NCBI RefSeq assembly: GCF_004293625.1
Contig: NZ_CP033040.1
Span: forward strand, 806,001 to 870,000
Length of the DNA stretch: 64,000 nt
Direction of reading: 5' to 3'
Source of the DNA: Thiomicrorhabdus indica
GTDB lineage: Bacteria > Pseudomonadota > Gammaproteobacteria > Thiomicrospirales > Thiomicrospiraceae
The position numbers and the translations under genes were made by a program. Each line of letters begins with the position of its first letter. Position 1 is the stretch's first letter. Positions 10,395-54,509 of this stretch are shown piece after piece. A model generated the notes under the pieces. It was not told the DNA's origin. It worked only from the letters and a program-made list of their open reading frames with translations, and searched no databases.

Positions 10395-10554
10395 GAGAGC
10401 TTTGCACGAGTAAGAGTTAAATCATAAATTGTGAAAAAATTCTGTTGAGCTAGGCAAAAAGTGCAGGGAATAGCTAGATATTTGCAAGGTTTTTAACAAA
10501 GCTCGGTAGGATTTTAGCCAATTTTGGTTATTTATTATCTCGTGCAAAGCTCTC
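10395..10554. mobile_element. MITE-like element, copy 1 (160 bp)
   Basis: The ends are perfect 16-bp inverted repeats (GAGAGCTTTGCACGAG ... CTCGTGCAAAGCTCTC). A second copy of the same length lies at 53471-53630; by hand alignment they differ at about 26 of 160 positions without gaps. The inner flanks of the repeats also show imperfect complementarity, so the whole element may fold back. It has no coding capacity. Adjacent bases ACGCT and ACATT may be a decayed target duplication. It ends 16 bases past the flagellin stop, so it could also end or stabilise that transcript. Confidence 0.82.
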
Positions 10555-10570: not shown

Positions 10571-11368
10571 TTAGCCATTCAACAATTGCAGAACACTGGC
10601 TTTTTGTTGGTTGCCTTGAGCTTGCATTGCAATTTGCGCTTGGCTCAAGATGTTTAGACGGTTTTGTTCGGTGATTGCTTGAGCAAAATCAGTGTCTTCA
10701 ATTTGACTTCGGCTGGCTTGAATATTGATGTTTTGGCTTTGAAGGTTGTCGTACGCACTCATTAAGCCGTTTTGCTGTGCGCCATATTCAGCACGGGTGC
10801 TAGCCAAGGTTTCCATTGCTTGATCAATTGCGTCAAGTGCGGTTGTCGCGCCTGAAGCGCTATTGATTGATAAGCTATCAATGGCTAAATTAGCGCCACT
10901 TAAGTTGGGCAAGGCTAATTCACTAGCCGATTCACCTACTTGGATATTCATCGAGGTTACATCCCCATTCATAAGGGCTTGACCATTAAATTTCGTGTTT
11001 TGAGATATGTCTTGCATGCCTTGATAAAGTTGCTGGAACTCTTGGTTTAACATGCCACGTTGGGCGTCATTCAAGGTACCGTTTTGAGCTTGCAAACTTA
11101 ATTCGCGCATGCGTTGAAGATTTTCCGTTAGGCCGGAAGCAGCTCCGTCGGCTGTCTGCAATAAAGAAATGCCCATTAACGCATTTTGACTGCCAACATC
11201 CATTGTTTGAGATTGGGTGTTCATGGCGTTTATAATCGCCAGTCCTGCTGCATTATCCGCCGCTCTGTTTACTTGACGACCGCTGGTCATGGACTCATTG
11301 ACACGGTTTGATTCGTATTGAGTAGTATAATTAGATGCGATATTTGAGCTGTAAGGGGTGATTGCCAT
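10571..11368 (-). CDS. Short flagellin (FliC-type)
   Basis: A 265-residue flagellin with the conserved D0/D1 ends and almost no variable centre. The N-terminal part has SGRQVNRAADNAAGLAI and QTADGAASGLTENLQRMREL; the C-terminal part has RAEYGAQQNGL, QIEDTDFAQAITEQNRLNIL and ends SVLQLLNG. It should be exported and polymerise into the filament. The frame is open to 11527, but flagellins begin near MAI, and the ATG ending at 11368 follows a GGGAG site. No other filament, hook or export gene is adjacent, so this is an orphan flagellin. A palindrome lies in its leader. Whether it is the main or an accessory filament protein is unknown. Confidence 0.93.
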   Translation of the reverse strand: MAITPYSSNIASNYTTQYESNRVNESMTSGRQVNRAADNAAGLAIINAMNTQSQTMDVGSQNALMGISLLQTADGAASGLTENLQRMRELSLQAQNGTLNDAQRGMLNQEFQQLYQGMQDISQNTKFNGQALMNGDVTSMNIQVGESASELALPNLSGANLAIDSLSINSASGATTALDAIDQAMETLASTRAEYGAQQNGLMSAYDNLQSQNINIQASRSQIEDTDFAQAITEQNRLNILSQAQIAMQAQGNQQKASVLQLLNG

Positions 11369-11387
11369 GGTGTGCTCCCAGGTTGAT

Positions 11388-11397
11388 ACCGGCCGGT
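11388..11397. repeat. ACCGGCCGGT palindrome in the flagellin leader
   Basis: Exact copy about 20 bases upstream of the flagellin start codon, just before its Shine-Dalgarno region. No sigma-28 promoter was recognised further upstream. Confidence 0.9.
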
Positions 11398-11511
11398 GAA
11401 ATTGTTTCGTTAGCGGTATGCGATTGTTTGCTTTGATAAGTTCATTGTAAAAAATATTTTGATTTACGCCAAGTAAAAACTGTGACGATTGTCGTTTTAA
11501 GAGAAGAAAAA

Positions 11512-11955
11512 ATGTCTTGTTGTTCAAAGGGTTATTGTGATTTTAAGTTTCCAGAAGGGCCGCCTCTCGTCGATAATTCGATTCAGAACCTTAATGCTAC
11601 CTACCAATTTTTGCCTTATGGCTCACTTTTACAAGAAGGTGAGGTGGTTCGTATTTGGATGGAATCGGGAAAAACTAAAACGGTGATTTTGGAACAAAAG
11701 CTGTCCTTGGAAGTTTTGGCTTATGGTTTTCGAGTCTTGGATGATACTTTTGAAAAAGACTTGCCTTGGCAACTTATCGCGTTTGACAGTGGTTTGGATT
11801 ATGAAGATATGATGCATTGGGGTACCCATCCACTTTTTAATGCGCAAATGTTACCTGTGGTTATGGTTTATCAACACCCAATTGAGCCGAAACCAATCTT
11901 AAAAGATCATTGGTTAAGTTTTCTCTACAAAATGCGCAATCTGGGGCGTTCATAA
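11512..11955 (+). CDS. Hypothetical protein with a cysteine-rich N-terminus
   Basis: I do not recognise this 147-residue protein. It begins MSCCSKGYC, so it has three cysteines in its first nine residues, followed by an acidic and aromatic body with no signal peptide or membrane segment. The frame is open from 11482, but ATG 11512 is preceded by GAGAAG at suitable spacing. It is divergent from the flagellin gene and shares a short promoter region with it. The N-terminal cysteines could bind metal or receive a modification; nothing else supports that. Confidence 0.65.
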   Translation: MSCCSKGYCDFKFPEGPPLVDNSIQNLNATYQFLPYGSLLQEGEVVRIWMESGKTKTVILEQKLSLEVLAYGFRVLDDTFEKDLPWQLIAFDSGLDYEDMMHWGTHPLFNAQMLPVVMVYQHPIEPKPILKDHWLSFLYKMRNLGRS

Positions 11956-53433: not shown

Positions 53434-53470
53434 TTTAATTGATTCAGGTTTGAATTTTCAACGGTTTCTA

Positions 53471-53630
53471 GAGAGCTTTGCATGAGTTAGAGATAAGGCA
53501 TAAATTGAGAAAAAACTGAACTGAACTAGACGAAAATTGCAGGGAATAGCTGGCTATTTGCAAAATTTTTAACAACGTTCAGTACTGTTTTAGCCAATTT
53601 TGGTTATTTATCATCTCGTGCAAAGCTCTC
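53471..53630. mobile_element. MITE-like element, copy 2 (160 bp)
   Basis: Same length and about 84% identity to 10395-10554 by hand alignment, with no gaps. The left end GAGAGCTTTGCATGAG differs by one base from the complement of the right end. It is flanked directly by TTCTA on both sides (53466-53470 and 53631-53635), a likely 5-bp target duplication. It separates the HicA-like gene from minC; the minC promoter may lie in or beyond it. Confidence 0.88.
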
Positions 53631-53699
53631 TTCTAGTATTTTTTTCGAAAACTGCTTACAATTTCGGTTCATTTAAATCCTCAATAAATAAAGCATTCA

Positions 53700-54509
53700 A
53701 TGTCTCAAAAAATCATCGAACTTAAAGGTTCTATCCTCACTCTTTCCGTCTTAAAATTCTTTTCTGACGATTTTGCTCAAACGCAACAGGCTTTACGCGA
53801 AAAAGTAGATCAAGCACCGAGTTTTTTTGTTGGGATTCCGGTAGTTTTGGAGCCGCAAGTTGAACTGCAAGATCCAACTTTTTTGGCATTGATGGTTGAG
53901 TTTCTGCATCAGTTACAGATGATTCCGATTGGTGTACGAACCAAAGACGAAACCATTATTAATCAAGCGCAATATGCTGGATTGGCGGTGTTTCCACCGG
54001 AAGAAAAACGTGCTAAAGCAAAAAAAGAAGATCGTCAGCCGGAATCTTTACCGGCCGGTGACAAAGTGGTTGATATTGAAACGCAAGCGGTTGGTCATTC
54101 TGAAGTGGAATCGCAAAATTCAGAAGTGGCGAGTGCTGAAGTGGTTGAGGCTATTACGCCACCAGAACAGGTTGTGCAATCTGCCATGGTAATTAATCGT
54201 TCGATTCGTTCGGGTCAGCAGATTCACGCCCCTAATCAGGATGTCGTTATTACGGGGTCGGTAAATCCGGGGGCGGAAGTCATCGCAGATGGCAATATCA
54301 CGGTATTTGGTAAGGTATTAGGAAAGGTGATTGCTGGCGCGTCTGGCAATATGCAGGCGAAGGTATTTGCAACAGAGTTGAATCCAGAAATTGTCTGTAT
54401 CGCTGGGGTTTATCAGTTGTCAGATGATATTGATGAAAAATATAAAAAAGGTTTGGTGCAAGTAGAATTGCGACAAGAAAAGTTGGTTTTGTCTCCATTG
54501 ACGAAATAA
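53700..54509 (+). CDS. minC: Septum-site inhibitor MinC
   Basis: A 269-residue protein with the N-terminal FtsZ-antagonist domain (about 1-105; ELKGSILTLSVLKF) and the C-terminal beta-helix domain (about 165-269; RSGQQIHAPNQDVVITGSV, GNITVFGKVLGKVIAGASGN). The linker between them is Glu/Ala-rich and holds the palindrome copy at 54050. With MinD it blocks FtsZ rings away from mid-cell. Confidence 0.94.
   Translation: MSQKIIELKGSILTLSVLKFFSDDFAQTQQALREKVDQAPSFFVGIPVVLEPQVELQDPTFLALMVEFLHQLQMIPIGVRTKDETIINQAQYAGLAVFPPEEKRAKAKKEDRQPESLPAGDKVVDIETQAVGHSEVESQNSEVASAEVVEAITPPEQVVQSAMVINRSIRSGQQIHAPNQDVVITGSVNPGAEVIADGNITVFGKVLGKVIAGASGNMQAKVFATELNPEIVCIAGVYQLSDDIDEKYKKGLVQVELRQEKLVLSPLTK

Follow-up and report, generated by a model that had tools for sequence, protein, structure and literature searches.

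A 160-bp MITE of Thiomicrorhabdus indica with a conserved one-strand-fold core joined to several kinds of ends

We identified two segments of the analysed 64-kb stretch of DNA (hereafter the window) as copies of a MITE. The element is short and non-coding, and it has terminal inverted repeats, target duplications and dispersed mobile copies. We consider it likely that this MITE is mobilised in trans by IS5-family transposases and that its core is preserved as a one-strand fold, most likely RNA. The element is thus a MITE with a conserved one-strand-fold core independent of its ends.

Results

Copy 1 (10395..10554) and copy 2 (53471..53630), both with the beta-first strand on the + strand, are 160 bp each and align without gaps at 134/160 identical positions (84%), as the initial annotation of this DNA had described. 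Within the genome, blastn gives the pair an E-value of 7.6e-44, and chance is thereby excluded. The 16-bp inverted ends noted earlier were also confirmed: those of copy 1, at 10395..10410 (+, GAGAGCTTTGCACGAG) and 10539..10554 (-), match at 16/16 positions, and those of copy 2, at 53471..53486 (+, one mismatch) and 53615..53630 (-), reading GAGAGCTTTGCATGAG / CTCGTGCAAAGCTCTC, match at 15/16. Copy 2 is bounded as claimed by TTCTA direct repeats, its left and right target-site duplications (53466..53470 and 53631..53635); copy 1 has no target duplication, with flanks ACGCT / ACATT. Neither copy contains an ORF of at least 100 aa, in agreement with the non-coding interior proposed before. The 20-bp block TAGCCAATTTTGGTTATTTA, reported as a central identical block, is indeed identical in both copies (10515-10534 and 53591-53610) and lies not in the centre but in the right third of the element. 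Copy 1 sits 16 bp past the stop codon of a flagellin gene (10571-11527, - strand), and copy 2 is 5' of a gene starting at 53700, whose product, judged by eye only, is MinC-like. At copy 2, neither a promoter nor a terminator signal exceeded chance.

The window also contains a palindrome, TACCGGCCGGTA, which occurs with at most one mismatch at 31 places against 0.03 expected. It is found both within and between genes, for example at 2981, 10240, 14552 and 53044; near several loci, relatives have ACCAGGCCTGGT in its place. This palindrome recalls the cyanobacterial HIP1 palindrome.

The element is repeated well beyond the window. The complete genome (2.83 Mb, one contig) holds about 12 full or partial places that match copy 1 well, with additional broken or longer matches beyond these, and ten places show 81-100% identity across almost the entire element. 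In a survey of the family, 44/63 genomes carried it. Thiomicrorhabdus sp. Milos-T2 (G016) has about 200 copies, with 206/203 end matches compared with 0/0 for a reversed control pattern. Among 134 extracted copies, 94 were 159 or 160 bp long, and exact flanking direct repeats measured 5 bp in 54, 4 bp in 8 and 6 bp in 1. One genome (G012) has four identical copies at four sites, three of them with exact 5-bp duplications that are all different. Conservation of both copies in place in distant relatives, with no other copies or matching transposase, had been named as grounds for giving up the transposon reading; copy 2 is missing upstream of the same gene in 14/14 relatives examined. An empty site with a single TTCTA could not be demonstrated in relatives because their intergenic DNA is too diverged. 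Almost all copies (60/61) are intergenic, at a median of ~76-79 bp from the neighbouring ORFs, and their orientation to neighbours is unbiased (of 61 copies, 14 with, 21 against, 9 convergent and 17 divergent).

Two further sites stood out among the copies. In the genome of T. indica (C1:1151984; L036, 1485-1515), GAGAGCTTTGGGTGCAAAGCTCTC amounts to two nearly back-to-back element tips, which may have been left by a deletion. In G043 and G036, an orthologous copy lies between purB-like and ycfD/roxA-like genes (L070 1440-1680 and L071 1440-1680), and its ends, GGCACCC / GGGTGCC and GGAATCC / GGGTTCC, are unlike those of all other copies and still pair. We take it for a fixed or founding copy.

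We found an insertion sequence with matching ends, as had been anticipated, in relatives. The complete genome of T. indica lacks both a PF01609 transposase and any relative of the partner transposase, and its unpaired end-like sites were rejected as IS ends, since none belongs to an IS. Relatives carry an IS of 1244-1264 bp with ends GAGACCTTTGCACGA, whose transposase is of the IS5 family (NF033581, 'transpos_IS5_4', at 262 bits; PF05598 and PF01609). Three of its copies (L137, L157 and L162) are flanked by exact 5-bp duplications, AATAA, AAGAT and AAGCT; both the ends and the duplication length therefore match those of the MITE. The left end of copy 1 equals the end of this IS except for C/G at position 5. 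Together, the ~12 genome copies, the lack of a PF01609 transposase of its own and the matching IS in relatives support the earlier proposal of a non-autonomous element whose enzyme is encoded elsewhere, and IS5-family transposases would be the ones to move it in trans. Without a partner transposase and with 5-16% divergence between copies, the element looks dormant in the genome of T. indica.

Intact IS copies are a minority in the family. In G016 the partner IS5_4 transposase was not detectable despite the ~200 MITE copies, and there were 22 matches to other PF01609 transposases. The MITE-IS link therefore rests on relatives, and the MITE evidently outlives its partner. A derivation of the element by deletion from an IS of this family (NF033581) was rejected because its core is unlike the IS interior: when cores were aligned locally to five IS interiors, the scores stayed within the shuffle range save for single borderline values.

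We found one common core, AGGC..AAA..GCA...AATAGC..GCTATT...AAG.TTT..AAC, combined with five or more kinds of ends (GAGACCTTTGCACGAG; GGAACCTCTGATTAATTC; TACCAATC...GATTGGTA; GTGTGGTGTTTCGCACA; AGAAGGTGTGAAT; and others). The second end type has its own IS5-family IS (L104) with the same ends, GGAACCTCTGAT, and is flanked by exact 4-bp duplications in 20/40 copies, mostly TTAA, CTAG, CTAA and TTAG, and by 5-bp duplications in none. A covariance model of the element matched in 56/369 genomes sampled across the class, and a second model, built from both main end types, matched in 68/398 genomes of the phylum, including families outside the class; in the genomes matched by these models the element is 157-162 bp long. 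By a DNA scan of named genomes, the core is present in Thiomicrorhabdus, Thiotrichales, Chromatiales, Lysobacterales, Sedimenticola, Ca. Thiodiazotropha and Methylophaga, and also in Comamonas, Acidovorax and Polaromonas. Its range takes in many Gammaproteobacteria, the Burkholderiales and one further class of the phylum. At the sensitivity used, viral contigs, plasmids and phages gave no match to the core; in two viral contigs only the end sequence matched, with no paired element in the stretch examined. One core match (L311) lies in a contig titled as a Campylobacterales MAG (JACXUN010000193.1), which could be bin contamination.

As a single strand, the element forms one long imperfect hairpin, with z-scores of -5.8 to -7.9. 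In 61 non-redundant family copies, compensatory double changes occur at 36/54 consensus pairs, counts that are not independent events because the copies are related. Paired cells make up 93.9%, compared with 39-48.5% when partners are slid, and double-change cells number 331, compared with 36-125. The top mutual-information pairs fall mostly on the antidiagonal expected of a full-length stem. Columns 38/121 show a covarying swap from C.T to T.C, that is, from G.A to A.G on the beta strand. A predominates in the unpaired columns, and the internal loops GC/AA and GCA/AA are almost invariant. The suggestion that folding matters was thus borne out, in that compensatory change preserves the fold of one strand.

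That strand is the beta-first strand. In the first RNAalifold run the alpha-first strand had almost no structure (-3.7 kcal/mol), which led us to compare the strands: the beta-first strand reached -45.1 kcal/mol and its complement -2.0 kcal/mol. The beta strand was the more stable in 59/61 family copies and in 57/58 members of an independent set (28/29 in a first sample) of non-redundant elements outside the training set. The family covariance model scored the two window copies at 134 and 131 bits on the + strand, compared with 52 and 43 bits on the - strand. A DNA palindrome is expected to show equal counts of G·U and A·C. At Watson-Crick-consensus pairs, we counted 257:63 G·U to A·C cells in the family set (40:9 by columns) and 229:82 in the independent set (34:13 by columns). 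The consensus structure was inferred from the same sequences, and the asymmetry persists, at 213:80, with the structure inferred on the opposite strand. By region, the ratio was 165:17 in the core (positions 39-80) and 92:46 in the outer part. One-strand-specific pairing is at its strongest in the core hairpin (alignment positions 39-121), which corresponds approximately to 10434..10516 (+) in copy 1 and 53510..53592 (+) in copy 2. Orientation relative to the replication strand showed no significant bias (25:17 in G019 and 16:24 in G016).

In many copies, additional GC-rich hairpins at fixed positions lengthen the element to 179-260 bp. These modules are present or absent in many combinations, both in G016 (L073-L102) and in the genome of T. 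indica (L005, L008 and L011); one of them falls inside the terminal repeat (TTTATACCCTTTGGG), and for one hairpin module we counted 76 occurrences in G016 and two in T. indica. As judged by inspection only, the modules lie at or close to the main stem's internal loops, and one may regard them as side branches on an undisturbed stem.

Discussion

The comparisons above suggest how such an element could persist. IS5-family (NF033581) transposases would move, or would have moved, the MITE in trans, cutting at the common ~15-bp ends and duplicating 5 bp of the target. Two layers would be under different constraints. The ends may serve as DNA sites fitted to the local transposase, and the ~83-nt core, together with, less strongly, the entire 160 nt, would be kept as a fold of the beta-first strand (+ in the window). 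The folded strand would most likely be RNA produced by read-through transcription, which we assume because copy 2 has no promoter above chance. The fold may be maintained as an aid to the element's own propagation or tolerance. Since gene orientation is unbiased and the fold has persisted while ends and hosts changed, we think that it benefits the element and not particular host genes. The unbiased orientation to neighbouring genes lends no support to any particular RNA function.

The strand asymmetry also bears on an explanation by ordinary DNA palindromes, in which the arms would be matched by template-switch (quasi-palindrome) correction, or for cruciform formation, with no selection on one strand. 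Long palindromic MITEs are common, and template switching alters both arms together and could mimic compensatory change; yet such a palindrome predicts equal G·U and A·C counts, which neither the family set nor the independent set shows, and near-perfect arms, where we observed conserved mismatched internal loops as well as the covarying swap at columns 38/121. We therefore find this account quite improbable. Somewhat less so, and still unlikely in our judgement, is a fold acting as beta-strand single-stranded DNA, for example as a hairpin exposed in replication or transposition. G-T is also the best-tolerated DNA mismatch, so the asymmetry alone cannot separate RNA from single-stranded DNA, and a 2024 survey left the same choice open for its own mobile motif (PMC11109978). 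We prefer RNA because the target duplications, together with inverted ends that match, indicate double-strand transposition of the ordinary DDE kind and because there is no significant leading/lagging bias, unlike in single-strand-transposing elements; the asymmetry is, moreover, weakest at the ends and strongest in the core. Single-strand transposition of the IS200/IS605 type, which leaves no target duplication and is strand-biased with respect to replication, does not fit the 5-bp duplications and the lack of significant replication-strand bias.

A host regulatory element kept at each site, whether a 3' UTR hairpin, a terminator or a stability element, would fit the intergenic positions close to neighbouring ORFs and the orthologous copy in G043 and G036 with its still-pairing ends. 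We consider it very unlikely, given that copies show no orientation bias to their neighbours, that copy 2 is missing in 14 relatives and has no terminator-like site, and that exact duplications and identical copies show movement. The reading we favour remains a MITE mobilised in trans whose beta strand, we infer, acts as RNA. An extension of it, to which we give slightly less than even credence, is a mobile structured RNA: a ~160-nt strand-specific fold that would spread by wearing successive IS5-type ends, with an RNA function under selection such as host-protein binding or protection of the element. This would loosely resemble an RNA-derived SINE, but with a DNA transposase.

Several known systems resemble the element in part. 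Correia/NEMIS and ERIC are palindromic mobile repeats of ~100-160 bp with RNA-level effects; their ends and cores probably differ from those of the present element. A search of 15 loci with Rfam 15 (4227 covariance models) at permissive thresholds gave no meaningful match over the element; only L070 gave any hit, to a plant microRNA model and far below threshold. At another locus (L096, 2216-2632, -), a cspA thermoregulator RNA (RF01766, 81.5 bits) is apparently a normal gene neighbour.

Like other IS-mobilised bacterial MITEs, the element is short and ORF-less, with inverted ends and AT-rich target duplications, and it is intergenic and multicopy with an IS partner that has the same ends (PMC10969869). 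Accounts of bacterial MITEs generally derive them by deletion from a single IS within a single species (PMC10969869), whereas the present core occurs across many families with several end kinds and has only its ends in common with the IS; that 2024 review of prokaryotic MITEs makes no mention of covariation. Our literature search for described equivalents returned MRSC-65-2 and the QMITEs only, and no description of the present element. MRSC-65-2, a mobile/repeat sequence candidate (NAR 2024, PMC11109978), is likewise mobile, with a single long covarying stem and many copies per genome (dozens), and was left undecided between RNA and DNA. Its conserved UYCCGG repeat is missing here, with no TYCCGG in either window copy, and it is by this repeat that we set the two apart. 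The present element has instead the core AGGC..GCA..AATAGC..GCTATT..AAG..AAC, and its strand bias has been measured. Coxiella burnetii QMITE1 and QMITE2 (PMC5896051) are, as here, gammaproteobacterial MITEs; their transcripts fold, and they give rise to small RNAs. They differ from the present element in length (300-400 bp and 150-190 bp) and in their direct repeats (2-3 and 7-11 nt), QMITE1 is reported to have no orthologues in other genomes, and no covariation analysis was found in the passages covered.

MITEs commonly pass for dead remnants of a parent transposon. The present core is unrelated to its parent, older and wider than any single set of ends, and has a strand-specific fold under compensatory change. 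If the mobile structured RNA reading is true, such an RNA would exist in Gammaproteobacteria (including Burkholderiales) and in a further class of the phylum. The G·U:A·C ratio in paired columns provides a simple test that distinguishes selection on one strand, whether as RNA or as single-stranded DNA, from DNA palindromes, and it lends itself to use on other mobile structured motifs left open as RNA or DNA. In copy-rich Thiomicrorhabdus, the role of MITE transcripts becomes directly testable.
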